DNA of 64,000 bases from Nitrosovibrio sp. Nv4. GTDB lineage: Bacteria > Pseudomonadota > Gammaproteobacteria > Burkholderiales > Nitrosomonadaceae. Position numbers and translations under genes: made by a program. The stretch is taken from assembly GCA_945860135.1 (NCBI GenBank), contig CAMAPK010000004.1:55611-119610 (forward strand), in the 5' to 3' direction. Positions 43,739 through 62,549 of this stretch are shown here, piece by piece (the first letter of the stretch is position 1; each line of letters begins with the position of its first letter). The notes beneath the pieces were generated by a model that made no database searches, was not told the DNA's origin, and was given only the letters and a program-made list of their open reading frames with translations.

Positions 43739-44839
43739 ATGCAAACCATTACGGTAGAGCTTGCCTCCGCAGCAAACGAGCGTGGTTACCCGATACTTAT
43801 CGGCGCTGGCATATTGGATCAGCCCGACCTTATTCTGCCCTACCTGCTGCAGAAGCGGGTTGCCATCGTCACCAACACCACGGTGGCGCCGCTTTACCTG
43901 GAACGATTGCGTATGGGGCTGGAAAGCCATGGGGTAGCGGCTATCTCCATCGTCCTTCCCGACGGCGAGGAACACAAGAACTGGCAAACATTAAATCTTA
44001 TTTTCGATGCGCTACTGTCAAACCGCTGTGAACGCAACACTACGGTCATCGCGCTGGGCGGTGGAGTCATCGGCGATCTGGCCGGATTCGCCGCCGCAAC
44101 TTATCTGCGTGGGGTGCCGTTTATCCAGGTTCCAACCACATTGCTGGCGCAAGTGGATTCTTCGGTGGGCGGCAAGACTGGCATCAACCATCCGCTCGGC
44201 AAGAACATGATCGGTGCTTTTTATCAGCCACGCGTGGTGCTGGCAGACAGCGCGACGCTCGGCACCTTGCCCGAGAGGGAATTACGTGCCGGCATTGCGG
44301 AGATCATCAAGTATGGATTGATCCGGGATCCTGCCTTTTTCGAGTGGCTGGAGCAGAATATGGCCCAGTTGCTGGCACGCGATCCTGACGTGCTGAACGA
44401 GGCAATTCGACGGAGTTGCGCGAACAAGGCAGAAGTTGTTGCGGCTGACGAACGCGAAAGTGGTGTAAGGGCGCTGCTCAATCTTGGCCATACCTTTGCT
44501 CATGCCATCGAAAACGGCATGGGCTACGGCGTGTGGCTGCACGGCGAAGCGGTGGCAGCAGGCACGCTGCTGGCTGCGGAATTATCACAGCGCATGCACC
44601 TGCTCAGTACAGCCGAAGTCGGGCGCATCCGCAAGATTTACTTGCAGGCTGGACTTCCTGTTGTTGCGCCCGATCTTGGCGTGGAAAAGTATCTACACCT
44701 GATGGGAATGGACAAAAAAGTCGAAGGCGGGAAAATGCGTTTTGTTCTCCTCAAACGCATTGGTAAAGCTGTGATTCATGCCGAGGTACCCGCGGCTATC
44801 CTGACCGGCACCCTGGTGGAATGCATTGTTAATGCATAA
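43739..44839 (+). CDS. aroB: 3-dehydroquinate synthase
   Basis: [52 protein letters not shown]. Confidence 0.98.
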
Positions 44840-45953
44840 GTTCGCGCCTTACGCAGTATCGTCGGCAAATTCACGTGGCCGCCGTGTGCAGGAGGAATCC
44901 CCGTCCGGGCGCAGTGAATTCCAGCGCGATCGTGATCGCATTATCCATTCCACCGCATTTCGCCGGCTTGAATACAAAACCCAGGTTTTCGTCAACCATG
45001 AAGGCGACCTGTTCCGTACCCGTCTGACCCACAGCCTGGAAGTGGCGCAAATCGGCCGCTCTGTCGCGCGCAATCTGCATCTTAATGAAGATCTGGTTGA
45101 AGCCATTGCCCTGGCGCATGACTTGGGGCATACGCCATTCGGTCACGCCGGACAGGATGCGCTGAACGACTGCATGAAAAATCATGGCGGTTTTGAACAT
45201 AATCTGCAATCCCTGCGTGTGGTCGATGTGCTGGAAGAGCGTTACGGCGCGTTTGATGGTTTGAACCTGTGCTTCGAAACCCGTGAAGGCATACTTAAAC
45301 ACTGCGCGAAGAAAAATGCCAGAAAACTCGGGGACGTGGGCGAGCGCTTTCTCTCCAATCAAAGGCCGTCACTGGAAGCGCAACTCGCCAATCTGGCCGA
45401 TGAAATTGCCTATAACAATCACGATGTGGACGACGGTCTGCGTTCCGGTCTCATCGCTCAGGAGCAACTGGAACAAGTCGGCATATTTTCACGGCATCTG
45501 GCAATGGTGAGAAAACTTTATCCTGAGATCTCGGGACGGCGTCTGGTTCATGAAACCGTGCGGCGCATGATCAATACCCTGGTGGCGGATCTGATCAGAC
45601 AGAGTGCGGCCAGCATCACCGCCGCCCGGCTGGAAGACCTGCCTGCGGTGCGAATGGCCCCGCTGCTGATCGGTTTCAGTGAGAAAATCAGACTGGAACA
45701 GCAGGAGTTGAAGAAATTCCTGCGCGACCATCTTTACCGGCACTATCAGGTGGCGCGCATGAGCAACAAAGCGCGGCATACCATCGAAATGCTGTTCAAT
45801 GCATTTAGCTCGGATATCCGGTTGCTTCCTCCAGAGCACCAGATCAAGTACCAGCAGGACGGGCATCAGGCCATCGCCGACTATATCGCCGGCATGACCG
45901 ATCGCTACGCAATCCGGGAATACCGGCGACTGTTCGCCATCGAGGAAAGCTGA
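44826..45953 (+). CDS. dgt: Deoxyguanosinetriphosphate triphosphohydrolase-like protein (dGTPase)
   Basis: [52 protein letters not shown]. Confidence 0.96.
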
Positions 45954-46075
45954 TTAAAAAATGGCCCGGCCATATTCAGATCGGTCGCTGTGGCACTGCT
46001 TCTGGACGACGCGCACTGTGTACGCAGAAGCCAATCGCTGGTAGTATCTGGTTGAATTTATGCGATTGAGCGGGC

Positions 46076-47146
46076 TTGCAAATGACAAAACTGAAAAACG
46101 ATACGCTGATACGCGCGCTACTGCGCCAACCGACTGAATATACTCCGGTATGGCTGATGCGTCAGGCTGGGCGCTATCTCCCCGAATATAATCAGACGCG
46201 TGCCCGTGCCGGCGATTTTCTTTCGCTGTGCAAGAATCCCGATTTCGCCACGGAAGTTACCATGCAGCCGCTGGCACGATTTCCACTGGATGCGGCGATA
46301 CTGTTTTCCGACATCCTCACCATTCCGGATGCGATGGGGCTGGGGCTTTATTTCGCCGAAGGCGAGGGTCCCAAGTTCGAGCGGCCGTTGCGGGAGGAAT
46401 GGGAAATTCGCGCACTGACGGTGCCCGATCCGGCCGTGCATTTACGCTATGTGATGGATGCGGTGGCCCAGATTCGCAAGACGCTGGATAACCAGGTGCC
46501 GCTGATTGGTTTTTCCGGCAGTCCATTTACGCTTGCCTGCTACATGGTGGAAGGTTGCGGCGGTACTGATTTTCGGCAAATCAAAACCATGCTTTACCAG
46601 CGCCCCGATCTGCTGCACCACATTCTCAACATCAATGCCCAGGCAGTCATTGCCTATCTCAACGCGCAGATCGAATCCGGCGCGCAGGCAGTGATGATTT
46701 TTGATACCTGGGGCGGAGCGCTATCGCATAACGCCTATCAGGAATTTTCCTTGCGCTACATGAGCCAGATACTGGCCGGATTAATACGCGAGCATGGCGG
46801 CGCACGCATCCCTGCCGTGGTTTTCACCAAGGGTGGCGGGCTATGGCTGGAAAGCATTGCCAACAGCGGGTGTGATGCAGTGGGCCTTGACTGGACCGTG
46901 GATATCGCGGAAGCGCGGCGACGCATCGGCCACAAAGTTGCGCTGCAAGGCAATCTTGATCCGGCAGTATTGTTCGCTGCGCCGGAAATTATTATTGCTG
47001 AAACGGAAAAAATTCTTGCCGGCTATGGCAACGGCAGCGGCCATGTGTTCAATCTGGGACACGGCATTTCCCAGTTCACGCCGCCGGAGAGCGCCCTGAC
47101 CCTGGCGGAAGCTGTGCATGCCCTGAGCCGTAAATATCACCAGTGA
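46076..47146 (+). CDS. hemE: Uroporphyrinogen decarboxylase
   Basis: [37 protein letters not shown]. Confidence 0.98.
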
Positions 47147-47156
47147 CCAGTGCTAA

Positions 47157-47427
47157 GGAGCCACTGAACAAGTCCTCCGTGGAGCGCGTTGCTGGTAAAA
47201 TCGGGATGATTGCAAGGCGCGCGACGCAGGTCGTAGCTGGCCTACGAGGCCAAGGAGCGCAACGCAGCAAGTGCCAGATTTTGCCGCAACCCTACGGGAC
47301 TGGGCTTTGCGGGCGGTCTGCGGTGTCAGGCGCGTAGCGAAGGGAATGACCATTCGCGTCCTGCCTTTCGTGCATCCCATCCCGCAAAGCCGCCGTCGCG
47401 CCCGCGTGGGACTTGTTCAGTGGTTCC
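47157..47427. mobile_element. MITE-like non-autonomous element (IS5-type signature)
   Basis: TIRs GGAGCCACTGAACAAGTCC (47157-47175) and GGACTTGTTCAGTGGTTCC (47409-47427), 18/19 match; flanking CTAA at 47153-47156 and 47428-47431; no ORF of its own. Confidence 0.82.
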
Positions 47428-47500
47428 CTAATGGGGTACTTCTAACAATCCGGATTTCAGCGCCGCACTTCTTTGTAATGTTTCAGCAGGACACCCATCC

Positions 47501-48178
47501 GTGCATATACTCATAATCGAAGACGATCCCGCGATCGCTACCAATCTCTACGATTTTCTGGAAGCCCGCGGGCACAGTGTCGATGCAGCCGCTGACGGCA
47601 TCACCGGCCTGCATCTCGCGATCACACAACACTTTGACGGCATTCTGCTTGATCTCGGTTTGCCGGGTATGGACGGCATCACATTGTGCCGCAAGCTGCG
47701 GCAGGAAGCGCATCTGGACACGCCGGTGCTGATGCTGACCGCGCGCGACACGCTGGAGGACAAGCTGAAAGGTTTTGAACACGGGGCAGATGACTATCTG
47801 GTCAAGCCGTTTGCCTTGAGAGAAGTCGAGGCACGTCTGGTGGCAATGCACAAACGTCATAGCGGCAAGGTCACCAGCCGCATGCTGGAAACCGGCGATC
47901 TGTCATTCGACCCGAAAACGATGTCGATCATTTTCGCCGGTATAGGGGTCAAATTGCCGCCGAAATGTATTCGCCTGCTTGCGCTCATGATGAGCGAGTC
48001 CGGACGCGTATTCAGCCGGAAAGAACTCGAGTCGGGAGTGTGGGGGGATGCGCAGGAAACCAGTGATACCCTGCGCAGTCATATGCACGAACTGCGCCGC
48101 GCACTGATCCGGGCTGGCGGCTACGATCCGATCGAGACCGTCCACGGCCTCGGCTACCGCCTGATTACTCGTGCTTGA
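47501..48178 (+). CDS. OmpR-family response regulator
   Basis: ILIIEDDPAIATNL; DGILLDLGLPGMDG; winged-helix C-terminus. Confidence 0.95.
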   Translation: MHILIIEDDPAIATNLYDFLEARGHSVDAAADGITGLHLAITQHFDGILLDLGLPGMDGITLCRKLRQEAHLDTPVLMLTARDTLEDKLKGFEHGADDYLVKPFALREVEARLVAMHKRHSGKVTSRMLETGDLSFDPKTMSIIFAGIGVKLPPKCIRLLALMMSESGRVFSRKELESGVWGDAQETSDTLRSHMHELRRALIRAGGYDPIETVHGLGYRLITRA

Positions 48179-49439
48179 GCTTAAGCGCGGTCTGCGCCTG
48201 CGCATTGCGCTAGCGTTCGCAATCTTCTGCATATTCGTCGTCGGCACCCTGGGCATCAGTCTTTATGTCGCTTCCGGCGATATTGAAGAGGCGCACATTG
48301 AGCAGGTCATTGAAATGGAGATGGACCATCTCATTGAGCGCTACCGTCAGCAGCCTGGTTTTATTCCACAAGCGGGTTCCAACCTCGAAGAGTACATCGT
48401 GCGCAACCATGTCGAGGATTTGCGGCTGCCCGATCACCTGCAGGGCCTCAACCAGAGGCGTCACATGGTATTTCGCGGCCCCCAGGAAGTCCGAGTCGCA
48501 GTACGGCACGTCGACGGGGTCAAGTTTCTTGTCGCGTATGAAATCGGGCTGCATGAGCAGCGCAAACAGGAGTTCGGGCTGCTGATCGGGTTGTCGCTGA
48601 TCCTGCTGGTCGGCGTAGCACTGGTGGTGGGATACCTGCTCGCCGGGCTGCTCGTCAGAGAAGTCGCCGACCTTGCCGAGAAAGTAAGGAATCTTGCGCC
48701 CGGCAATGTGCAGGGCGTAACACTGACACAGCCAGGGATGGATGAAGAAGTGGCGCAGCTGGCACACGCACTGGATGATTACCAGAGTCGTATCAGGCGC
48801 ATGCTGCAGCGCGAACAGGAGTTCACCGCCAACGTGAGCCATGAAATGCGCACCCCGATCACCACGATCCTGACGAGTTGCGAGTTGCTGGCGACTGAGC
48901 CGAGCATGCCCGAAAAGGTGCGCACCCGCATCGGTATGATCGAGGCGGCAGCGACCCGCATGGGCGAACAATTGCAGGCTTTGCTGTTTCTTGCCCGCGA
49001 ACAGGCGCTGGGCGTCACGGAACCGGTCGCAATCGCGGAATGCGTGTACAATGCGGCCGAGCCGTTACGCCTGGAAATCGCGCGTAAACACCTCGACTTT
49101 GAGGTAATAGTGGAGCCGGAAGCTGTCCTCACGCTCAACCGGCAAGCGCTGCACACCGCCCTGGTGAATCTGCTGCGCAACGCCGTGCAATATACCGCAC
49201 ATGGTTCTGTGCGGGTGAAATTCAGCGGGCGCGAGCTCACGATCTCCGATTCGGGCATCGGTATCGAACCTTCTTACCTGCCTTTCCTGTTCGAACGCTT
49301 TTTCCGGGGTTCGACCCAGGGCGAAGGTCTGGGGATCGGGCTGGCCATCGTCAAGCGCATTTGCGATCACTACGGCTGGCACATCGAAGTCGACAGCACG
49401 CCCGGGCAGGGTGCAACTTTTCATATCACCTTTCCCTGA
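48171..49439 (+). CDS. Sensor histidine kinase
   Basis: TM-periplasmic-TM; FTANVSHEMRTPITTI; ISDSGIGIEPSYLPFLFERFFRG; GLGIGLAIVKRI. Confidence 0.95.
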   Translation: MLELKRGLRLRIALAFAIFCIFVVGTLGISLYVASGDIEEAHIEQVIEMEMDHLIERYRQQPGFIPQAGSNLEEYIVRNHVEDLRLPDHLQGLNQRRHMVFRGPQEVRVAVRHVDGVKFLVAYEIGLHEQRKQEFGLLIGLSLILLVGVALVVGYLLAGLLVREVADLAEKVRNLAPGNVQGVTLTQPGMDEEVAQLAHALDDYQSRIRRMLQREQEFTANVSHEMRTPITTILTSCELLATEPSMPEKVRTRIGMIEAAATRMGEQLQALLFLAREQALGVTEPVAIAECVYNAAEPLRLEIARKHLDFEVIVEPEAVLTLNRQALHTALVNLLRNAVQYTAHGSVRVKFSGRELTISDSGIGIEPSYLPFLFERFFRGSTQGEGLGIGLAIVKRICDHYGWHIEVDSTPGQGATFHITFP

Positions 49440-49559: not shown

Positions 49560-50513
49560 ATGCCAACCGTGCAACCAGTAGTACTATTTTTCATCTTGGG
49601 CGTTTTGGCCGGGGTATTGAAATCCGACCTCAAGATTCCTGAGGCTTTATACAAAAGCATGAGCCTCTTCCTGTTGATCGCGATCGGTCTCAAGGGCGGG
49701 GTGTCGATGGCCAAGTACGAAATCATGGAAGTGCTGCCCATTGCCCTGTCCATGGTGGTGCTCGCGGCATTGGTTCCGCTGTGCGCCTACCCTATATTGA
49801 AGTATGTGGGCAAATTCAACCAGGCTGACTCGGGCGCCATTGCCGCCCACTACGGTTCGGTGAGCGCGGTGACCTTCGCCGTGGGTATTGCCTTCCTGGA
49901 AGGTGAGGGGCAGACCTCCGAGGGTTACATGGTCCTGATCATGGCGCTGATGGAAATACCGGCACTGGTAACCGGCACGATCCTGGCGCGGCGCGGCGCC
50001 GGAGGCGAAACCGCATGGGGCAAACTGATGCACGAGATTCTGACCGGCACCAGTATTTTCCTGATGGTGGGCGGGGTTATCATCGGTTATTACGCCGGTA
50101 TCGTGAAACTGGTTTCACCACTGGACAAGATGTTCATGGACCTGTTCATGGGGGTACTGGCTTTCTTCCTGCTGGAGATGGGTCTGCTGGCATCGGCGCG
50201 ACTGGCGGCAATCAGGGCAAAAGGCACATTCCTGATCGTGTTCGGCATCATGTTCCCGCTAGCAGCCGGGTTACTGGGCGCTTTCCTGGGCAGCGCATTC
50301 GGACTGTCGCTTGGCGGCACCACAATGCTCGCTGTACTGTACGCCAGCTGCTCTTACATCGCGGCTCCCGCAGCCATGCGCATCGCAGTGCCGGATGCGG
50401 ATCCTGCGGTATCGATCGGCGCTTCCCTCGGGGTGACCTTTCCATTTAATATATTTGTCGGCGTGCCGATTTACTATGAGATGGCGAAATTTTTCGTCGG
50501 CGGTCCAGCATAG
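49560..50513 (+). CDS. sbtA: SbtA-like sodium-dependent bicarbonate transporter
   Basis: LFFILGVLAGVLKSDLKIPEALYKSMSLFLLIAIGLKGG...SGAIAAHYGSVSAVTFAVGIAFLE, characteristic of Sbt_1. Confidence 0.92.
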   Translation: MPTVQPVVLFFILGVLAGVLKSDLKIPEALYKSMSLFLLIAIGLKGGVSMAKYEIMEVLPIALSMVVLAALVPLCAYPILKYVGKFNQADSGAIAAHYGSVSAVTFAVGIAFLEGEGQTSEGYMVLIMALMEIPALVTGTILARRGAGGETAWGKLMHEILTGTSIFLMVGGVIIGYYAGIVKLVSPLDKMFMDLFMGVLAFFLLEMGLLASARLAAIRAKGTFLIVFGIMFPLAAGLLGAFLGSAFGLSLGGTTMLAVLYASCSYIAAPAAMRIAVPDADPAVSIGASLGVTFPFNIFVGVPIYYEMAKFFVGGPA

Positions 50514-50566: not shown

Positions 50567-50884
50567 ATGAATAACACGATAGCAATGAAACGATTCGAGA
50601 TCGTCGTTGATGAAGAAAAACTCAACGAGCTGATCGCGTTGCTGGGGGAAGCCGGCGTGCGCGGCTATACCTTCATCAAGAATACGGGCGGCCTCGGCTC
50701 GCGCGGCGAACGGCGCCCCGACGGCCTCTTCCTGCAGGAAGAGAATGCCATGGTGATTCTCGCCTGCCAGCAAGAGCAGGCGCAGAAGTTAGTTGCTACA
50801 CTGCGCCCCAAGCTGAAGGAATTCGGCGGTATGTGCCTGATTTCGGACTGTCTCTGGGTGGAAGGGCCGGCAGTCTCATATTGA
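50567..50884 (+). CDS. PII-like signalling protein (SbtB/CPII-like), copy 1
   Basis: MKRFEIVVDEEKLNELIALLGEAGVRGYTFIKNTGGLGSRGERR...; directly follows sbtA. Confidence 0.85.
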   Translation: MNNTIAMKRFEIVVDEEKLNELIALLGEAGVRGYTFIKNTGGLGSRGERRPDGLFLQEENAMVILACQQEQAQKLVATLRPKLKEFGGMCLISDCLWVEGPAVSY

Positions 50885-51376: not shown

Positions 51377-52849
51377 ATGGGGATACTCAGCTTATTGCTT
51401 TGGACCCCGATTGCCGGCATTCTGGTTTTGTCTTTCACGTCCGGTCAGGACACCCGTTCGATTCGTTTCTTCGCCAACCTGTTTGCCGCCCTCACATTTC
51501 TGCTCAGTTGCTGGCTGGTCATCATTTACGATCAGCAGGATAGCGCCATTCAGTTCGGTGAACAGTTTACGCTCAACCCAAAATTAGGCAGTGCTTTCGC
51601 CCTGGGTGTTGACGGCCTGTCGATCCCCATGCTGGTATTGGCGACGTTGCTCACGTCCATTGCAATGCTCGCTTCTTTTACCATTTCTAACAGTATTAAA
51701 AGTTTTCATATTTGTATCCTGTTGCTGGAGTTCGGCATGTTGGGTGTGTTCCTGGCACAGGATTGGGCGTTGTTCTACATCTTCTGGGAATTGACTTTAA
51801 TCCCGCTGTTTTTTCTGATCGACCGCTGGGGCGGTAAACGGCGGCACACGGCCAGTCTCAACTTCGTGCTGTACACGATGGGCGGTTCGATTTTCATGCT
51901 CATTAGTTTGCTCGCGATTGGTCACTATATGCCTGAACACGGCGGTTCGTTGATGGCCTCGATGAGTGAGGCGGCGCAAAGCATGCCACGGGATGAGCAA
52001 GTCTGGGTGCTACTGGGTCTTTTGATCGGTTTCGGGGTCAAGATGCCGATTTTCCCAATGCATGGCTGGCTGCCTCTGGCCCACGTTGAGGCACCCAGCC
52101 CGGTCAGTATCCTGCTGTCCGGCGTTTTGCTGAAAATGGGTTCTTATGGCCTGATACGGGCCGTGGTGATGCTGCCGGAGGCTGCGCAGATATTGCAGCC
52201 ATGGCTGGTTTTCCTGGCTTTATTCGGGATGATTTACGGCGGTTTATTGGCCTGGCGGCAAAGCGATCTCAAAGCGATGGTGGCTTATTCTTCGGTCAGC
52301 CACATGGGCATAGTCTTGTTGGGCATTGCCGCCTTGAATGAAACGGGACTCACTGGCGCAGTCTTGCAGATGAGCGCTCATGGATTGATTGCGGGTGCGA
52401 TGTTTCTACTGGTGGGGTTGCTGTATGAACGCACTCACACCCGCAACATTCAGGATTACAGCTCTCTGGTCCAGGTGATGCCGCGGTTTGCCTTGTTCAT
52501 GACCTTAACCTTATTCGCGGCGATGGGCTTGCCGGGTTCGGTAGGTTTTATTGCCGAATTGCATGCTGTTATCGGCGGCTATCAGCAATGGGGCAGCTTG
52601 ATGGTATTTTTCAGCCTGAGCATCCTGATCAGTTCTGCCTATGCCATTCGCACCATTGGCTTGTTATTCACCGGTCCGGTAAAACCGCAGATGCGAGAGA
52701 TCGAAGATTTGCGTACCCCCGAGTTATTGGCAGCCGGCCTACTGGTTACAGGTATCGTGTTGTTTGGTCTGCTGCCTGAGCCGCTGATTGACTTGTCGTC
52801 AGCAACCCTGGGCCACATGAGCAGCTTGATCAGTCAACGTATTCAATAG
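51377..52849 (+). CDS. NuoM-like proton-translocating subunit of the Dab-type cluster
   Basis: FYIFWELTLIPLFFLIDRWGG; FGVKMPIFPMHGWLPLAHVEAPSPVSILLSGVLLKMGSYGLIR. Confidence 0.9.
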   Translation: MGILSLLLWTPIAGILVLSFTSGQDTRSIRFFANLFAALTFLLSCWLVIIYDQQDSAIQFGEQFTLNPKLGSAFALGVDGLSIPMLVLATLLTSIAMLASFTISNSIKSFHICILLLEFGMLGVFLAQDWALFYIFWELTLIPLFFLIDRWGGKRRHTASLNFVLYTMGGSIFMLISLLAIGHYMPEHGGSLMASMSEAAQSMPRDEQVWVLLGLLIGFGVKMPIFPMHGWLPLAHVEAPSPVSILLSGVLLKMGSYGLIRAVVMLPEAAQILQPWLVFLALFGMIYGGLLAWRQSDLKAMVAYSSVSHMGIVLLGIAALNETGLTGAVLQMSAHGLIAGAMFLLVGLLYERTHTRNIQDYSSLVQVMPRFALFMTLTLFAAMGLPGSVGFIAELHAVIGGYQQWGSLMVFFSLSILISSAYAIRTIGLLFTGPVKPQMREIEDLRTPELLAAGLLVTGIVLFGLLPEPLIDLSSATLGHMSSLISQRIQ

Positions 52850-52858
52850 GACATTGCC

Positions 52859-55800
52859 ATGCACACGCACACGCACACAGCCTCTGAATCCCTTGGCAGT
52901 CGCGAACAGGTTATCGCGGCGCTGGATCATTTGGATCATGTCCTTCCTGGGCAAGGACCGATCCATGATTTTGTCCACCACAATACCATTCATGGTTTTC
53001 AGCATCTGCCATTTGAAGAGGCGCTGGCAGCATACGAAGCATTAACCGGTACCTTCGGCTATCTTCCTGAAGCACAAAACCGGGAGTTTTATCAGCAGGG
53101 ACGGATTAATGACCGGGATCTGTTTGCGGCACTTGCGCATAACCCGCAGTTGCAGGCTGAGCAAATCGTTGGTACAGCGGGTGACTTAACGATCACGCGC
53201 AAAGATGTTTATCGCATCGCCATGTTATTTGACCTGCAAGCCCTTACTGTCAGTCAATTGAACTGGCAAATAGAAGAGTTGGATGCGTTGGGCACAGTGC
53301 AAGCTGATGTGCCTGAGCAAGTCCGCAGGCGCTTGCTGGCAAACAGCACCGACCAGAGTGCTGGCGTCAGGCAGTTGTGGGAAAGTATTTCGGATAAGCT
53401 GGGACTGGAACAGGTTAACCTGCACCCGGAGAACATGCTTGATTTGTCGCTGGAGCAGGCTGAGGTCTGGCTGGAGAAAATTCATTCCAGTGATCCGGAT
53501 AGCGGCGGTCTTACGCTGCATCAGCGTATGCGGCAACAAGCCAGCGCTTCACTGGATGAGTTGCTGGCCCAACTCGGCGACAGCATTACCCTGCGCGGTT
53601 TTGTCCTGGCATTAAGCGGGATCGACATTCTCTACTCCGTTCGTCCGCAAATGATACGCATCTGTGCGTCTGCCCTGGACGAAGGCGTGGCCGCCTGGCA
53701 ACTGCCGGAACGTAGCCGCTTGGGCCTGTACGCCGCCTGGCGGGCAACGGCTCAATACGACATGAATCCGTTCTTGCACGATTTGCCTGGCTGGCAGCAG
53801 ATCGTGGCGGAATCACCCGAGGATGCAGTTGATACCATTATCCAGCAATTGACCCAACTGGAGATACCGCATGATAAATGGGAGGGGTATCTGCAGCGGC
53901 TGGCGCTTGAATTACCGGGCTGGTCGGGGTTGATCAACTGGCGGCAACATCATCCGCAATACCATGCCGAGAACGATGCAGCGCCGAAGCTGGCGGATTA
54001 TCTGGCTATCCGGCTGATTCTGGACAGACTCTGGCTTAATCAGGCCTGTCATGAAACCTGGAAAATTGAAGCCAAACTGAGTTCATTGCAATTCTATTTC
54101 CGTAAGAATCTATCGGAATTCATGGTGCGCAGCCAACTATATCAGGGCGGCCTGCCGGAATACCTGACGCAGCCGGCGGAATCATTGATAAGCCGCACCG
54201 GTTCCGAACGGCATAAACAATCCGACTGGCAGCAGCTCGCCGATCTGGTCTGGACATGGCAATTCAGCCCGATGGCGGAAACCAATGCTGGAAGCTGTGG
54301 CTTCAATGGTGGCTGGCGTCTGTTTCGTCTATGCCAGCATCTGGGACTCAATGCCGCATATGTTCAACAGTTGCAGCAAAAAGACCTGCAGCAGATGTTG
54401 GCGTTACTGGATGAATTCAACCTGACTGAGCGCAGCAAGGTTTGGCTTGATGCTTACGAGTATCATTATCGGGAAGAATTATTTCAGGCATTGCGCGCCA
54501 ACCATAACCGTGGCCGCTGGGCGCGGCGCGATAAACGTCCTCAGGCACAAGTGGTATTTTGTATTGATGAGCGTGAAGAAAGTATTCGGCGTCATCTTGA
54601 GGAAATCAATCCCGCCATTGAAACGCTTGGTGCCGCTGGGTTCTTCGGGATCCCGATGAATTATAAAGGACTGGACGACCATCACCGGACAGCACTGTGT
54701 CCAGTGGTCGTGACGCCAGTTCACGAAGTCGACGAGATCCCGAGGAAAGGCGCTGACGAGGTGCTACATGCACATAACAGCGGACGCAACCTCTACAAAC
54801 GACTCGCTTATTTGCTGAACCAGAGCCTTCGCCGCAATGTGTTGTTATCGTATGCAGCCATCGACGCACTGGCTCCATTTACTTTAACCACATTATTAAG
54901 TAAAACATTTCTGCCTACCTATTTTAATGCAGCCAATAGCAACCTGCGGCAAAGTATCTTACGCGAAGTGCCGACTGAGTTGCTATTCACTGCCGCAGAT
55001 ACGGCTGGCCCGGCAACCCTTGAGAATCCGCGATTGGGTTTTACAACGACTGAACAGGCTGACCGGCTTGCCGGATTCTTGCGCAATGCTGGCCTGACTT
55101 ATGGCTTTGCGCCGATCGTTTGTTTTATGGCGCATGGTTCAACCAGTCAAAATAATCCCCACGAAGCTGCCCACGATTGTGGTGCTTGTAGCGGGCGGCG
55201 TGGCGGTCCGAATGCACGTGTATTTGCGGCAATGGCCAACCGCCCCGAAGTGCGTGCCTTGTTGGCGCAGCGGGGGATCGTGATTCCTGAAGATAGCTGG
55301 TTCGTCGGTGCCGAACATGATACTTCCAGTGATGTCGTTACCTGGTATGACGTAGAAGACGTTCCGCAAAAATTACGAGCTGCTTTCGATGACTGTCAAA
55401 CCTGCGTTTTGCAGGCCCGGGCGGCCTCCGCTCAAGAGCGTTGCCGGCGCTTTTTCTCAGCCCGCAATCCGGCATCGCCTGAAGCAGCCATGCGCCATGT
55501 AACAAATCGTTCCAATGATCTGAGTCAGGTTCGTCCCGAATATGGACACGCTACCAATGCCTCAGCGGTCATCGGTCGACGCTCCGTCACGCAGGGGATA
55601 TTTCTGGATCGGCGCGCTTTTCTTATTTCCTACGATGCAACTCAGGATCCCGATGGCAAGCTGCTCGAAAACGTTCTGCTGACGGTAGGTCCCGTTGGCG
55701 CCGGGATTAATCTGGAATACTACTTTTCCACGATCAATAATGAGCGTTTTGGCTGTGGTACCAAAATCCCACACAACATCATCGGTCTATTCGGCGTGAT

Positions 55801-56149
55801 GGAGGGAGCTAGCAGTGATTTACGTACCGGCTTGCCAAAGCAAATGGTGGAAATCCATGAAGCGGTACGTTTGCAGATTGTGGTTGAAGCAAGAACCTCA
55901 GTACTTGGAGAAATTTATGGCCGTCAGGAAAGTTTGCGTGAGCTGATAGGTGGTGGCTGGGTGCTGTTGAGCGCGATAGACCCTGACAGCGGTGAAATTT
56001 CCGTGTTTGAGCGCGGCGTGGGTTTTGTTCCCTGGCAAGCTGAAGTTGAAGAATTGTCAGTGGTTGAGAAATCAGTGGATTGTTACCAGGGACTATCGGT
56101 GCCGGTATCGCCAGTGTTGGTTAAACAGCCTGAAGAACTGGGAGTTTAA
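52859..56149 (+). CDS. dabA: DabA (DUF2309) inorganic carbon transporter subunit
   Basis: GPIHDFVHHNTIHGFQHLPFEEAL; VVFCIDEREESIRRHLE (CxDxR); MAHGSTSQNNPHEAAHDCGACSGRRGGPNARVFA. Confidence 0.96.
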   Translation: MHTHTHTASESLGSREQVIAALDHLDHVLPGQGPIHDFVHHNTIHGFQHLPFEEALAAYEALTGTFGYLPEAQNREFYQQGRINDRDLFAALAHNPQLQAEQIVGTAGDLTITRKDVYRIAMLFDLQALTVSQLNWQIEELDALGTVQADVPEQVRRRLLANSTDQSAGVRQLWESISDKLGLEQVNLHPENMLDLSLEQAEVWLEKIHSSDPDSGGLTLHQRMRQQASASLDELLAQLGDSITLRGFVLALSGIDILYSVRPQMIRICASALDEGVAAWQLPERSRLGLYAAWRATAQYDMNPFLHDLPGWQQIVAESPEDAVDTIIQQLTQLEIPHDKWEGYLQRLALELPGWSGLINWRQHHPQYHAENDAAPKLADYLAIRLILDRLWLNQACHETWKIEAKLSSLQFYFRKNLSEFMVRSQLYQGGLPEYLTQPAESLISRTGSERHKQSDWQQLADLVWTWQFSPMAETNAGSCGFNGGWRLFRLCQHLGLNAAYVQQLQQKDLQQMLALLDEFNLTERSKVWLDAYEYHYREELFQALRANHNRGRWARRDKRPQAQVVFCIDEREESIRRHLEEINPAIETLGAAGFFGIPMNYKGLDDHHRTALCPVVVTPVHEVDEIPRKGADEVLHAHNSGRNLYKRLAYLLNQSLRRNVLLSYAAIDALAPFTLTTLLSKTFLPTYFNAANSNLRQSILREVPTELLFTAADTAGPATLENPRLGFTTTEQADRLAGFLRNAGLTYGFAPIVCFMAHGSTSQNNPHEAAHDCGACSGRRGGPNARVFAAMANRPEVRALLAQRGIVIPEDSWFVGAEHDTSSDVVTWYDVEDVPQKLRAAFDDCQTCVLQARAASAQERCRRFFSARNPASPEAAMRHVTNRSNDLSQVRPEYGHATNASAVIGRRSVTQGIFLDRRAFLISYDATQDPDGKLLENVLLTVGPVGAGINLEYYFSTINNERFGCGTKIPHNIIGLFGVMEGASSDLRTGLPKQMVEIHEAVRLQIVVEARTSVLGEIYGRQESLRELIGGGWVLLSAIDPDSGEISVFERGVGFVPWQAEVEELSVVEKSVDCYQGLSVPVSPVLVKQPEELGV

Positions 56150-56153
56150 AGCA

Positions 56154-57722
56154 ATGGATGCATTGGTTGTTCTGATCCTGTTGTTACCATTGACAGCTGC
56201 CGCGGTGATCGGCATCGGTCATGTCTTTGGCATGTTGTGTGGTGTGGCCGACGAAGCGGTCACGGCGCGTATTGCTAGCTGGGCGATTACCTTGTCGTGC
56301 CTATTGGCTCTGACTCTGCTGGGCGCCGATTTGTTCGGTAAAAACACCGGCTCGTTCAGTGCGGGGCAATGGCTGGGCAGTGATAGTCTGAGCATAAAGG
56401 TGAATTTCATCACTACGGGTTTTAATGTCGGCTTGGCAGCGCTGTTTTCGATATTGCTAGTCATTGTCACTCGTTTCTCAATCAATTATCTGCATAAAGA
56501 ACCCGGTTTCTACCGGTTCTTCTTCGCCCTGAGTTTGTTTTCTTCGGCAATGTTGTTGCTGGTGTTATCGGGTAACGCTGTTGGTACTTTTGTCGGCTGG
56601 GAAATTGCTGGGCTATGTTCCTACCTGTTGATAGCCTTTGCCTATGACCGTCCAGTCGCTGTTATCAATGCAACTCGTGTATTTGTCACCAATCGCATCG
56701 GCGATGCTGGTTTCATTCTGGGAATAGGCATCAGCTATTTTTATGCCAGAAACATCGACTGGAATGGTCTGAATGCGGTAGCGGCGCAATTGACCACCCC
56801 TACCGCCACTGTAATCGCTATGTGTTTCGCCGTAGCGGCTTTTGCAAAATCGGCACAGTTGCCGTTTACCCCCTGGCTGGCGCGAGCAATGGAAGGGCCG
56901 ACACCATCGAGTGCGGTGTTTTACGGTGCGATCATGACGCATGCCGGGGTCTATCTGGTAATTCTGCTGCAGCCAATTTTTGAACAGGCCCCATTTGCAA
57001 TGGGGTTGCTGGCCGTTGTGGGATTAAGCACTGCCGTCTATAGCTTTGTGGTCGGACTCACTCAAACCGATGTCAAAAGTTCGCTGTGTTTTGCCATATC
57101 CGCTCAACTGGGTTTGATGTTTCTGGAATGCGGTCTGGGTTTGTGGCAGCTGGCCAGTTGGCATCTTTGCGCTCATGCTGTTGTGCGCTGTTATCAAGTA
57201 TTGACTGCCCCGTCGTTCCTGCATTATGTACACGGCAACCCGATGAAGCCAGTGCCCCGCGATATTGCCGGGCTGCGCTGGCTATATACCGCATCGATAC
57301 AGCGTTTCTGGCTGGATCCGGTTACCGATCGGGCTTTGGTAAGGCCGGTTCACGGGCTGGGACATGATCTGGGCTATTTTGATGACCATATCGTTGATCG
57401 CATCATGGGCACACCTGCGCGCGCAGGCCGCGCCATATCATCGCTGGCGCAACTGGAAGGGAAAATACTGAGTTCCCGGCCGGATCATGATGCCGACGAA
57501 TTCAGTCGTGGCAGTGGATTCGCGGGCAAATTTTTCCAATGGACAGCAGATATTTTTAATTGGTTTGAAGATCGCCTGGTATTGCGGGGCATAGGCATAG
57601 ACGCTATCGACATGGGACGTCAGCTTGGATATGCCGCCAATAAATTTGAAAAATTGATACTGAAACCCCGCTACTTGGTGGTATTTGTATTCACAGTGTT
57701 GCTGCTTGCAGCCGCAATCTGA
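56154..57722 (+). CDS. dabB: DabB-like NuoL-type subunit
   Basis: GTFVGWEIAGLCSYLLIAFAYDRP; FAKSAQLPFTPWLARAMEGPTPSSAVFYGAIMTHAGVYL; immediately after dabA. Confidence 0.88.
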   Translation: MDALVVLILLLPLTAAAVIGIGHVFGMLCGVADEAVTARIASWAITLSCLLALTLLGADLFGKNTGSFSAGQWLGSDSLSIKVNFITTGFNVGLAALFSILLVIVTRFSINYLHKEPGFYRFFFALSLFSSAMLLLVLSGNAVGTFVGWEIAGLCSYLLIAFAYDRPVAVINATRVFVTNRIGDAGFILGIGISYFYARNIDWNGLNAVAAQLTTPTATVIAMCFAVAAFAKSAQLPFTPWLARAMEGPTPSSAVFYGAIMTHAGVYLVILLQPIFEQAPFAMGLLAVVGLSTAVYSFVVGLTQTDVKSSLCFAISAQLGLMFLECGLGLWQLASWHLCAHAVVRCYQVLTAPSFLHYVHGNPMKPVPRDIAGLRWLYTASIQRFWLDPVTDRALVRPVHGLGHDLGYFDDHIVDRIMGTPARAGRAISSLAQLEGKILSSRPDHDADEFSRGSGFAGKFFQWTADIFNWFEDRLVLRGIGIDAIDMGRQLGYAANKFEKLILKPRYLVVFVFTVLLLAAAI

Positions 57723-57729
57723 GGGACTG

Positions 57730-59328
57730 ATGGTAATTACTCCTGTTATCCCCTGGTCAGAATCGGCAGCGTTTCCGTTGCTGACTATGTTGACGCTTAT
57801 CCCGCTGGCAACGATGGCTGCTATTCTATTGTCACGTTCATCGTCGGTGGCATTGCGTATCGGTTTTGCCGGAACACTTTCGACGGTATTGCTCAGCTTC
57901 TACCTACTGAGCGTTTTCGATGCTGATCGCCCCGGCATTCAACTGGCCGAAGAGATACACAATCTGGGTTTTACCTACAGTGTGGGTGTTGACGGTGCCA
58001 ATATCCTGTTTATTCCACTGACAGCCATTTTTACATTGCTGGTTTTGGTTTATACCTCGATTACCCGGCACGCTACTGATCGGCTGAAAATCGCCTGTTT
58101 TCTGGGCTATGAAGGCATTCTGATCGGCGCGTTCTCGGCGATGAATCTGATGCAGTTCTGGTTATGGTGTGTGCTGGAACTGATCCCGGTGGTGCTGTTG
58201 ACGATTCGTGCCGGTACCGGGGAAAACCGGCGCTGGGTGGTCGCATTTTTGCTGCAGCACTGGCTGAGCGGGTTATTGATGACCCTGGCAGGTTTCATGT
58301 TGCTCGCTTTTGGCTTAATGGGTGCAGCACCTGACGCCGAACTGACTTTTGACTGGCTGAAATTGAAAGAAGTCAGTAATGCGCAGTTACAGTATGGGTC
58401 ACTGATCTTCTTTCTCCTGTTTTTTGGTTTTGCCATCCGCATGCCGATATTCCCGTTTCACGGCTGGCTGCCGGTACTGGCAGAACAAGGCACTGTCGCC
58501 AGTGTAGCCATTTTCCTGGTGGGTCTGAAACTGGGTGTTTATGGAGCCATCCGTTTTATCCTGCCGCTGATTCCGGAGATGGCCGAACAATGGTCCGGAT
58601 TTGTATTGACACTGGGTTTAATCAGTATTGTTTACGGGGCGCTGCTGGCGTTGATGCAAATCAATATCCGCCGTTTGCTGGCCTTTGCCGTCGTCAGTCA
58701 TACAGGAATGCTGGTCATCGGCATTTTTGATTTCAACAAATACGGCATGGAAGGCACCATTCTGTTATCCGTTGCTTATGGACTCGCGACAGCGGGCATG
58801 TTTTTCAGTGTCGGCCTGATTTATGAGTGGACTCGTACTGCTTTTATCCCGCGCCTGGGCGGACTGTTTGATGCCAATATCACCATTGCATTCCTGTTTG
58901 TGATCTCTGCACTGACCACCATGGTCATGCCCGGCACCCCAGGGTTTGACGGCGCGCATCTGCTGATCGAGGGTACTGCCTCAAGATACGGTTGGCTGGT
59001 TGTTACTGCGATATTGCTAGGTAACCTCCTGGCTGCGGGTCTTCTGCTGCGTGCTTTTCAACAGATGTTTATTGCCGCGCCTAAACGGTTTCTGCAACCC
59101 CACAGCAGCGCTCAGCAACCCGCTAGAAAGGAACAGGTTATCGCTGTGGTGATCTGCTCATTATTAATCGGTACGGGTTTTTACACGACACCCTGGGTGC
59201 ACGTGATAGACCAGAACGTAGTGGCCTCCATGAACGAGCTGGATGCCGTGTTGGATTCTTCACATCATGGTACACAACAGTCTGGCACTGCGACTGTGCC
59301 TGTCGGGGTTAAAGGCGGGCATAAATGA
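57730..59328 (+). CDS. Divergent NuoM-like subunit (Lys to Arg in the central helix)
   Basis: FGFAIRMPIFPFHGWLPVLAEQGTVASVAIFLVGLKLGVYGAIR. Confidence 0.88.
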   Translation: MVITPVIPWSESAAFPLLTMLTLIPLATMAAILLSRSSSVALRIGFAGTLSTVLLSFYLLSVFDADRPGIQLAEEIHNLGFTYSVGVDGANILFIPLTAIFTLLVLVYTSITRHATDRLKIACFLGYEGILIGAFSAMNLMQFWLWCVLELIPVVLLTIRAGTGENRRWVVAFLLQHWLSGLLMTLAGFMLLAFGLMGAAPDAELTFDWLKLKEVSNAQLQYGSLIFFLLFFGFAIRMPIFPFHGWLPVLAEQGTVASVAIFLVGLKLGVYGAIRFILPLIPEMAEQWSGFVLTLGLISIVYGALLALMQINIRRLLAFAVVSHTGMLVIGIFDFNKYGMEGTILLSVAYGLATAGMFFSVGLIYEWTRTAFIPRLGGLFDANITIAFLFVISALTTMVMPGTPGFDGAHLLIEGTASRYGWLVVTAILLGNLLAAGLLLRAFQQMFIAAPKRFLQPHSSAQQPARKEQVIAVVICSLLIGTGFYTTPWVHVIDQNVVASMNELDAVLDSSHHGTQQSGTATVPVGVKGGHK

Positions 59329-60830
59329 GTGAAGCCGGTTTTCCGCTGCTGAGTCTTGCCATTCTGTTGCCATTACTGGGTGCTATTGCCACTGGGTTCA
59401 CCCCTACCGTAAAACTGGCCAAATCGATCGCGCTGGTAATTGCCGGTTGCGAACTGCTGCTGACGCTGTTGATAGTGCAGTCGTTCAATGCCGGTAGCGG
59501 CGATTTTCAGTTGGTCGAAAAATATCCCTGGATACCATTCCTGAATATCAACTATCTGGTCGGTGTTGATGGGATTTCGGTGTTATTTCTGCCAATGTCA
59601 GCACTGCTGACGCTGACTGCGATTATTGCTTCGTGGAATTCGGTGCAACACAGCCCCCGTTTTCATTTTGCCTTATTGCTGGCACTGGAAGGGATCACCA
59701 TCGGGGTGTTTACTTCACTGGATACAGTGTTGTTCTTTTTGTTCTGGGAACTGACGCTGCCACCTTTTTTCTTTTTAATCGGTTTGTGGGGCATCGGTTC
59801 GCAGCGCCGCGGCGCCGCAATGAAATACACGCTGTTTATGCTGTTTGGCGGAGTGCCGCTACTATTTGCAATCGTCATATTGGCCACCAACCACGCCGTG
59901 GCAGTGGGCGGCGCTATTCCCCAGGCGCTATCCTTCAGCTTGCCGGTCCTGCTGGAAACGCCTTTGGCGGCTGATTTACAGATACTGGTTTTCTTCCTGT
60001 TGCTGCTGGGCTTCGCTGTCAAAGCACCTCTGGCTCCCTTTCATACCTGGCTGCCCACCGCTGCAATGGAAGGCCCGGCACACGTAACGGCGATACTGAC
60101 CGGCCTGAAACTGGGAGCTTACGGTATTTTGCGTTTTACCATGCCGTTAGCTCCTGCGGCGGCTGTTGAATACAGTTGGTTGCTGGGTATTCTCGGTGCT
60201 GTTACGCTTATTTATGGCGCATTGATTGCTTTACAGCAGACTAACTTGCGCCGCCTGCTGGCTTATGCCAGTCTCAGTCACGTCGGCCTGGTGGTGGTCG
60301 GTATCGCGTCTTTGAACATGCAAGGTCTGCAGGGTGCAGTTTTCCAATTGCTCAACTTCACTTTGGTGGCCAGTTCACTGATGCTGGTTGCCGGCATGAT
60401 TCAACACCGGTTGGGCAGTACCGAGATTATCCATTTGGGTGGCTTGGCCAAAGTGATGCCACGGCTGACCTGTTTCTACTTCCTGTTTACCTTGGCGAGT
60501 ATCGGGGTACCGGGAACCAATGGGTTTCCCGCTGAGCTGATGTTGATTATCGGTGCATTGAAAGCACACGCTAGTTTGGGCATCGCTGCATTGGTTAGTG
60601 CGGTCCTCGGTGCCACATACATGCTGTCCTATATCCGCCGTGCATTTTTCGGTCCAATCACGCAATCCGTTGTCAGTCAGGCGCAAGATTTATCCCCGCG
60701 TGAACTGGCTCTGTTATGCGTTCCCGCCTTGCTGGTTCTGGTGCTCGGGTTTTTCCCGGACAGTGTGCTGCATATCAATCAGATGGCGTCAGAAGTGTGG
60801 TTGTCGCGGCTACTTAATCCAGCTCCTTAG
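59325..60830 (+). CDS. NuoM-like subunit
   Basis: LFFLFWELTLPPFFFLIGLWG; FAVKAPLAPFHTWLPTAAMEGPAHVTAILTGLKLGAYGILR. Confidence 0.9.
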   Translation: MSEAGFPLLSLAILLPLLGAIATGFTPTVKLAKSIALVIAGCELLLTLLIVQSFNAGSGDFQLVEKYPWIPFLNINYLVGVDGISVLFLPMSALLTLTAIIASWNSVQHSPRFHFALLLALEGITIGVFTSLDTVLFFLFWELTLPPFFFLIGLWGIGSQRRGAAMKYTLFMLFGGVPLLFAIVILATNHAVAVGGAIPQALSFSLPVLLETPLAADLQILVFFLLLLGFAVKAPLAPFHTWLPTAAMEGPAHVTAILTGLKLGAYGILRFTMPLAPAAAVEYSWLLGILGAVTLIYGALIALQQTNLRRLLAYASLSHVGLVVVGIASLNMQGLQGAVFQLLNFTLVASSLMLVAGMIQHRLGSTEIIHLGGLAKVMPRLTCFYFLFTLASIGVPGTNGFPAELMLIIGALKAHASLGIAALVSAVLGATYMLSYIRRAFFGPITQSVVSQAQDLSPRELALLCVPALLVLVLGFFPDSVLHINQMASEVWLSRLLNPAP

Positions 60831-60922: not shown

Positions 60923-61993
60923 ATGAATACCGGAACTGATTACCTGCTCGATTTGAATGCGCGCCATTCTAGGACTTTTATTGATTTGGCCATGGAACGC
61001 CGCAGATACCGGGGCGAGCACCCCACCGAAATCGCGGCTCTTAAATGTATGGATGGCAGGCTTAATCTGCCGGTCATGACGCGAACCGCAGTTGGAATCA
61101 TTCAACCTTTTCGCAACCTGGGTGGCAAGTTTGATCTGGGCTGGCCCTTCTTTCAGGCAACTTTAGATCACTGGGCGCAGTACTCCATCGGCCGTGGCAG
61201 GCACTGCCTGATCTTCGTGACCTATCATTTTGCGCGCGGAGATATTCACCGTGGCTGCAGGGGATTCAATTACGATACCAATGCTGCCAGAGACACGGCC
61301 ATAAAACTCAAGAACCAGTTTGAGCGTATTTATGGCAAGGGTGCCGTGGTACCGATAGTGTGCGGGATCGAGACTGACCTTGAGGCCTTGATCCTGCACG
61401 GCGAAGACGGTCGCGTTATCGATCTGGCCGAAGTAAAGGAAGACTTATCCGGGCTCGAATTGGAAGGTATGTTGCATTCGCTGTACCCCTCAATGCCGGA
61501 ACGGATTTTCAAGGATATGATCCCACTGGTTGAAGGAAATATCCGGCACGTCCGAATGATCCGCGCTTCCAACAGGCCGATCGAAGATGCCGAACACAAG
61601 GAATGGGTTTTGGGAGTGGGGCGCGGCTTTGACTGGCTGCATGCCATTAATACGGCTTTCATCGTCGGGCCTTTCGATCCGAATCTTTCTGATGCGATTG
61701 GAACTGCGGCTGTATTGCTGAAAGGCAATATCGACGATGGCCGGGTCACCCCAAGCGGTATTGTACTCATGACTTCGGCCGCTTACAGAGAAATTGGCCC
61801 CGAATGTGAGTTGGCGAAGGAGAAAGCAAGATTCCTGAGCAAATTTGCGCTCGACGTCATCAAGGCCAAGGTTCCGGATCTGGTGCCTCACCTAAATATA
61901 CTTACCGGATACACTGATTTGAACACCAGAAAGTTTGAAGTGCTGGAGCGTTTGGACAAGGTTTCCAATCCGGTCGCTTACAAAGCGGCTTAG
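60923..61993 (+). CDS. Putative carbonic anhydrase, beta-class/CsoSCA-like
   Basis: KCMDGRLNLP (CxDxR), PFRNLGGKFDLGWP, TYHFARGDIHRGCRGF (His...HxxC); encoded directly after the Dab genes. Confidence 0.68.
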   Translation: MNTGTDYLLDLNARHSRTFIDLAMERRRYRGEHPTEIAALKCMDGRLNLPVMTRTAVGIIQPFRNLGGKFDLGWPFFQATLDHWAQYSIGRGRHCLIFVTYHFARGDIHRGCRGFNYDTNAARDTAIKLKNQFERIYGKGAVVPIVCGIETDLEALILHGEDGRVIDLAEVKEDLSGLELEGMLHSLYPSMPERIFKDMIPLVEGNIRHVRMIRASNRPIEDAEHKEWVLGVGRGFDWLHAINTAFIVGPFDPNLSDAIGTAAVLLKGNIDDGRVTPSGIVLMTSAAYREIGPECELAKEKARFLSKFALDVIKAKVPDLVPHLNILTGYTDLNTRKFEVLERLDKVSNPVAYKAA

Positions 61994-62008: not shown

Positions 62009-62058
62009 AAGCGGAGCTGCCAGTTCGAGATAGAGCTGGCAGCTCCGCTTTTTTTTTG
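62009..62058 (+). terminator. Rho-independent terminator after the CA-like gene
   Basis: AAGCGGAGCTGCCAG-ttcgagatagag-CTGGCAGCTCCGCTT followed by a T run. Confidence 0.92.
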
Positions 62059-62231: not shown

Positions 62232-62549
62232 ATGAATAATACGATAACAATGAAACGGTTTGAGATCGTCGTCGATGAGGAAAAGCTCAACGAGCTGATC
62301 GCATTGCTGGAATCAACCGGTGTGCGCGGCTATACTTTCATCAAGCATACGGGCGGTCTCGGTTCGCGCGGTGAACGGCGTCCTGATGGCCTCTTTTTTC
62401 AGGAAAAGAATGCCATGGTGATTCTCGCCTGCCAGGAAGAGCAGGCACAGAAAGTAGTCACGGTGCTACGCCCCAGGTTGAAGGAATTTGGTGGCATGTG
62501 CCTGATTTCAGACTGCCTCTGGGTGGAAGGGCCGACAGTTTCATACTGA
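62232..62549 (+). CDS. PII-like signalling protein (SbtB/CPII-like), copy 2
   Basis: Differs from copy 1 at about 13 of 105 aligned residues. Confidence 0.85.
   Translation: MNNTITMKRFEIVVDEEKLNELIALLESTGVRGYTFIKHTGGLGSRGERRPDGLFFQEKNAMVILACQEEQAQKVVTVLRPRLKEFGGMCLISDCLWVEGPTVSY

Follow-up and report, generated by a model that had tools for sequence, protein, structure and literature searches.

The window, that is, the whole 64,000-nucleotide stretch of Nitrosovibrio sp. Nv4 DNA analysed, carries on its + strand an intact open reading frame of 356 aa, csoSCA2, which runs from an ATG at 60923 to a TAG at 61993. It is preceded by the genes of a Dab pump and of a bicarbonate transporter, in the order SbtA, SbtB, NuoM1-DabA-NuoL-NuoM2-NuoM3-csoSCA2, followed by a terminator and a second SbtB-like gene. 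The features are as follows.

49560..50513, + strand: SbtA-type Na+/bicarbonate transporter (PF05982, E=3.3e-110)
50567..50884, + strand: SbtB-like PII protein beside SbtA (PF00543, E=7.9e-13)
51377..52849, + strand: DabB-like antiporter subunit (NuoM1 type), first gene of the Dab operon (PF00361, E=1.4e-67)
52859..56149, + strand: DabA of the long (~1100 aa) class (PF10070, E=1.5e-253)
56154..57722, + strand: DabB-like antiporter subunit (NuoL type; PF00361 and PF00662)
57727..59328, + strand: DabB-like antiporter subunit (NuoM2 type; PF00361, E=1.9e-37)
59325..60830, + strand: DabB-like antiporter subunit (NuoM3 type), directly upstream of csoSCA2 (PF00361, E=2.2e-61)
60923..61993, + strand: csoSCA2, predicted CsoSCA-type beta-carbonic anhydrase (CA) of 356 aa without the N-terminal domain; putative Zn site C42/H102/C112, dyad D44-R46
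62009..62057, + strand: intrinsic terminator, 18-bp stem and T run, just after csoSCA2
62232..62549, + strand: second SbtB-like PII protein, after the terminator (PF00543, E=4.7e-13)

Pfam identifies four Proton_antipo_M subunits in the Dab cluster. The start of the NuoL-type gene was moved from the ORF start at 55992 to 56154, as inferred from 522-aa orthologues. DabA (1096 aa) keeps a CA-like site pattern, with CIDER at residues 568-572 (C568-D570-R572), H759 and C774. The gap between NuoM3 and csoSCA2 is 92 bp in the window, with a median of 28 bp over 31 loci, and a sigma-70 promoter scan of this interval found none on the + strand. The terminator probably closes a Dab-csoSCA2 transcription unit. 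The preliminary description of this DNA had remarked on a CsoSCA/beta-CA-like gene standing next to a Dab cluster instead of a carboxysome operon, and this observation was confirmed: the Dab cluster lies directly upstream and no shell gene was found.

The Dab-csoSCA2 block is flanked by two very similar SbtB-like PII genes, perhaps a duplicated inorganic carbon (Ci) sensor. Further upstream, an amo operon was considered for positions 43739-49439 and rejected, the Pfam matches there being DHQ synthase, HD phosphohydrolase, URO-D, a response regulator and a histidine kinase.

Family and active site of the csoSCA2 protein

The reading frame is not a chance ORF, because homologues occur in 38 of the 150 relatives searched (two of the 38 being weak matches to true CsoSCA only), 406 contig stretches of the genome collection encode relatives, and dN/dS within the genus is approximately 0.05 (range 0.04-0.08, against L046, L082 and L048). 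csoSCA2 is a genuine gene under strong purifying selection. Damaged copies were also seen: in L047 the frame stops prematurely close to the C-terminus, in L091 there are fragments only, and in genome G037 (L137) the gene is broken, with a split frame, on a contig other than that of the Dab operon.

Searches with the single protein gave no Pfam match at E=1, an NCBIfam CsoSCA match (E=4e-5) weaker than the curated cut-off of that family, and, using phmmer against the PDB, CsoSCA 8thm at E=4e-4. When a profile of 82 homologues was compared with the PDB, the top five matches were CsoSCA sequences (E=1.6e-9 to 1.3e-8). Pfam CsoSCA_cat was matched by 75 of these 82 homologues at E<=1 and Pro_CA by 16 at the same threshold, while profile-profile alignment with full-length Nitrosomonadaceae CsoSCA (hhalign) gave a probability of 96.7%. 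The AlphaFold2 model (pLDDT 90.7, pTM 0.87) was then searched with Foldseek, and the five best PDB matches were all CsoSCA (8thm/9g4t/2fgy; E 1e-17 to 3e-16; TM 0.67-0.72 by query length). Ordinary beta-CAs rank after these, at E=2.5e-6 and weaker, and CS2 hydrolase 3ten is also among the matches. Judged by these sequence and model comparisons, the window protein is a divergent beta-CA whose nearest solved relatives in sequence and fold are carboxysomal CsoSCA, and it can be placed in the CsoSCA lineage, as the preliminary description had supposed.

It is not itself a carboxysomal CsoSCA. The alignment shows that approximately 110 N-terminal residues of CsoSCA are missing, the N-terminal domain PF20687 gave no Pfam match, and the gene is not in a cso operon. 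In CsoSCA the N-terminus holds a hexamer-building domain (PMC11086599) and in H. neapolitanus a Rubisco-binding tail (PMC10614612). With the carboxysomal enzymes (H. neapolitanus 2fgy/9g4t; Cyanobium 8thm) the window protein shares the fold, a single Zn site per chain and the Asp-Arg dyad, whereas identity is only approximately 20%. The length had been likened to that of the shell enzyme, and here the comparison fails, since carboxysomal CsoSCA in this data set measure ~490-540 aa against 356 aa. Ordinary beta-CAs (Pro_CA, PF00484; for example CcaA, 5swc) have the same Cys-His-Cys Zn site and Asp-Arg dyad but are about half the length and give a far weaker fold match.

The protein fits a family that is already known. 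CsoSCA2 (variant 2) was named in 2022 by the USF group for proteins encoded outside carboxysome loci, with an N-terminus of ~40 aa and all active-site residues present; the alignment in that paper takes in one N. oligotropha sequence and the authors found it surprising that CsoSCA2 had yet to be studied (PMC9164163). The "non-cso" CsoSCA cluster described in 2024 is the same group (PMC11086599). The window protein has the same ~40-aa N-terminus, lies outside a carboxysome locus and falls in a clade apart from carboxysomal CsoSCA; it also agrees with both published descriptions in its active-site residues and in having one active and one defunct domain, and N. oligotropha members occur both in the published alignment and in our homologue set. 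There is no structural difference from published CsoSCA2, and the linkage to a Dab operon is what differs. DabA does not occur in PMC9164163, and a CsoSCA2-Dab link is not mentioned in the accessible parts of either paper. The family itself is thus known and the Dab link is the part not found in earlier literature; none was found in the available text of open-licence PMC papers, and an earlier report elsewhere is possible. Nor did a measured activity turn up for any CsoSCA2.

The residues singled out in the preliminary description (C42, D44, R46, RNLGG at 64-68, H102, H109 and C112) are all present at the positions given. None of C42, D44, R46, H102 and C112 varies among the 82 homologues, and their aligned counterparts in H. 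neapolitanus CsoSCA are C173, D175, R177, H242 and C253 (our count puts PDB chain index and protein numbering 28 apart), among which C173/H242/C253 are the Zn ligands (PMC12646314). The sequence accordingly carries the type I beta-CA pattern of Cys-His-Cys ligands and an Asp-Arg dyad (CxDxR ... H ... C), which predicts a Zn site at C42, H102 and C112. H109 had been offered as an alternative ligand to H102. It was rejected because it aligns with the non-ligand H250 of CsoSCA and is missing from the invariant residues of the homologues, being K in L028; the proposed site therefore stands with H102 alone as its histidine.

D237, in a GFD motif, is also invariant in the homologues and aligns with Asp409 of H. 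neapolitanus CsoSCA, where this aspartate goes with RuBP-independent activity. Cyanobium CsoSCA has Lys469 in its place, and PMC11086599 reports that K469D yields a partly RuBP-independent enzyme. On these two grounds, any activity of the window protein would be expected to be RuBP-independent. That the protein has CA activity at all appears very likely.

Association with Dab operons

The order NuoM-DabA-NuoL-NuoM-NuoM-csoSCA2 is almost fixed in Nitrosomonadaceae. The Dab operon lies upstream of csoSCA2 in every Nitrosomonas-type locus with enough upstream sequence except L060, where csoSCA2 is present with no NuoM3 upstream. Among 91 genomes of the family, CsoSCA2 is encoded in 32 of the 34 that have the long-DabA, four-antiporter operon and in 1 of the 57 that do not (Fisher p=5e-21, a value that is not corrected for shared ancestry and overstates the case because genomes of one family share ancestry). 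The single genome outside the rule, G005, is 51% complete. In the two converse exceptions, G045 and G064, the Dab operon is present and CsoSCA2 was found neither beside it nor elsewhere in the genome. The family also has a second Dab class with a short DabA of ~860-940 aa; CsoSCA2 is absent from all 11 genomes with short DabA only. Nitrosomonas sp. GRE_AOB_3 (L036/L061) has csoSCA2 twice, in tandem, after its Dab operon; the copies share 77-79% identity with the window protein.

The pairing has arisen more than once. In four Nitrosospira-like genomes of genus g2 (G012, G033, G038, G046), an orthologous Dab operon stands tail-to-tail with a CsoSCA2 gene. The DabA of these genomes falls in one clade with the other Nitrosomonadaceae DabA of this operon, but their CsoSCA2 is only ~43-45% identical to the window protein and is placed in the tree among Rhodocyclaceae and other proteobacterial sequences; a tree uniting the two CsoSCA2 groups was rejected (AU p=5.8e-70). 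Genome G074 has a second CsoSCA, of full length and matching all three Pfam domains, tail-to-tail with a different (third-type) DabA (L033). Being tail-to-tail, the genes are not co-transcribed in either of these arrangements. Further afield, a Nitrospira DabA lies 1.6 kb from the CsoSCA2 midpoint (L117) and a Hydrogenophilales CsoSCA2 adjoins a Dab cluster (L115). This repeated and independent pairing suggests that CsoSCA2-type enzymes work jointly with Dab pumps, and functional coupling of the two in the window is, on this comparative evidence, fairly likely.

Other genes of inorganic carbon supply also occur nearby. SbtA is a neighbour of CsoSCA2 in L094 and L150, and cbbL/Q/O lie near it in Thiobacillus-type loci (L103, L105, L109, L111) as well as in L152 and in N. 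communis L083, the latter with genes for Dab, CsoSCA2 and Rubisco all inside ~20 kb. In L150 (G132), csoSCA2 stands ~1 kb from SbtA and 5.5 kb from a carboxysome operon with its own CsoSCA, so that both forms are found side by side.

Some genomes and neighbourhoods that have CsoSCA2 lack Dab, SbtA and Rubisco genes, including those of Azoarcus, Zoogloea and Marinospirillum. At the Zoogloea and Marinospirillum loci none of these genes was present within the flanks covered, and the same holds for all 10 loci newly drawn from a sample of the phylum. Dab coupling is therefore a use made of the enzyme by particular lineages and not the defining role of the family.

A probable carbonic anhydrase without a carboxysome

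No BMC shell gene was found in the window's own genome (89% complete) or in its genus-mates G001-G008. The search for cso or cbb genes elsewhere in the genome, proposed in the preliminary description, thus returned no shell gene; what it did find is a Rubisco large chain of 473 aa, sharing 93% identity with a Thiobacillus-type CbbL, and close to it a CbbO-like gene. The genome also encodes one ordinary Pro_CA beta-CA, so that it would have a CA even without CsoSCA2. Other members of the family do have CsoSCA-bearing carboxysomes; CsoSCA2 is encoded in 1 of the 14 BMC-bearing genomes of the family, G020, whose BMC match is a contig-end fragment. In some family members a Dab cluster adjoins a carboxysome operon (G066, L128).

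We consider that CsoSCA2 is probably the cytosolic CA of a carboxysome-free inorganic carbon module that it forms with Dab, a reading we hold with moderate confidence. csoSCA2 would probably be expressed as the last gene of the five-gene Dab (DIC-accumulating) operon of this carboxysome-free ammonia oxidiser. Dab, converting CO2 to HCO3- under the drive of the membrane potential, and the neighbouring SbtA, taking up HCO3-, would fill the cytosol with HCO3-, in the direction of flux that we infer; CsoSCA2 would bring HCO3- and CO2 back to equilibrium, either close to the pump or in the bulk cytosol. Unencapsulated form I Rubisco would thereby get CO2 and anabolic carboxylases would keep HCO3-. 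That Dab couples membrane potential to vectorial CO2 hydration is reported in PMC13144422. The DAB1 system of H. neapolitanus (DabA1/DabB1), described in that same paper, is likewise a Dab pump, whereas the window has a free CsoSCA2 in place of a carboxysome, and its antiporter-type subunits number four.

A free CA beside a Ci pump had been called mechanistically unusual in the preliminary description, as it could short-circuit bicarbonate accumulation. The classical objection does exist, namely that free CA lets pumped HCO3- leak as CO2, as shown in Synechococcus (described in PMC10880623). It is weakened by work in E. coli, where DAB2 together with E. coli Can made cells lacking carboxysomes grow better on Rubisco, to the point of growing slowly in air, and where a model indicated that CA lowers the uptake rate needed (PMC9894237). 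"Mechanistically unusual" is accordingly only partly right, the protein family having also been described already outside carboxysomes. It is because of the growth benefit from DAB and Can that we favor giving CsoSCA2 the role of cytosolic CA in a shell-less Ci module. The pairing thus suggests how carbon may be supplied to unpackaged Rubisco in a carboxysome-free ammonia oxidiser, and bears on how autotrophs with Ci pumps and without carboxysomes avoid or exploit leakage through a cytosolic CA. CsoSCA2 is widespread; now that it has been seen beside Dab repeatedly and independently, a specific role can be proposed for it and tested, and cultured hosts exist (N. oligotropha, N. marina and N. 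communis). A bolder form of the proposal, in which the four-antiporter Dab and its dedicated CsoSCA2 are one functional unit that was recruited several times independently and replaces the carboxysome in supplying Rubisco in carboxysome-free ammonia oxidisers, is put forward only tentatively.

The best surviving alternative, which we nevertheless judge unlikely, is that CsoSCA2 is a generic housekeeping CA of the cytosol that supplies HCO3- for anaplerotic carboxylation, its place beside Dab having been inherited by chance. The unrelated neighbourhoods in heterotrophs and in the phylum sample agree with such a role, as does the lack of a Pro_CA match in some ammonia oxidisers carrying CsoSCA2 (G020, G039, G059); however, most CsoSCA2 genomes do have Pro_CA as well, and chance hardly explains why different CsoSCA2 clades, and a CsoSCA copy too, independently came to lie next to Dab. 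Improbable in our estimate is a CA docked on the pump. CsoSCA2 would in that case be a dedicated subunit of the Dab complex, bound perhaps to the long DabA, and would recapture leaked CO2 or channel HCO3-. The near-fixed operon position, and the restriction within the family to the long-DabA, four-antiporter class, would suit docking, but CsoSCA2 revealed no docking tail, no membrane segment and no interface, two genomes have the Dab operon without it, and the known DAB2 complex is reported in PMC13144422 as a two-subunit pump, to which the four antiporter-type subunits and long DabA of the window stand in contrast.

We regard it as very unlikely that the protein has the CsoSCA fold without being a CA, serving as a Ci sensor or as another lyase (for example CS2- or COS-hydrolase-like): some beta-CA-fold enzymes do act on other substrates and 3ten appears in the fold search, but not one of the type I beta-CA catalytic residues varies, and it is CsoSCA rather than CS2 hydrolase that matches most closely. 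That csoSCA2 is the remnant of a lost carboxysome operon is hardly credible even with CsoSCA-bearing carboxysomes in the same family, given its deep clade separate from CsoSCA in the tree, the absent N-terminal domain, the purifying selection on the gene and a genome in which no shell gene was found.

Another neighbour of csoSCA2 recurs in several Patescibacteria phyla, and a single literature search found nothing on this arrangement. An NADH/hydrogenase complex was considered for the genes around it there and rejected, Pfam showing ATP synthase. csoSCA2 lies directly after the ATP synthase operon in L076, L077, L078, L080 and L086-L090; the operon was recognised from Pfam matches in L087 and from matches to AtpA/AtpD at the remaining loci.
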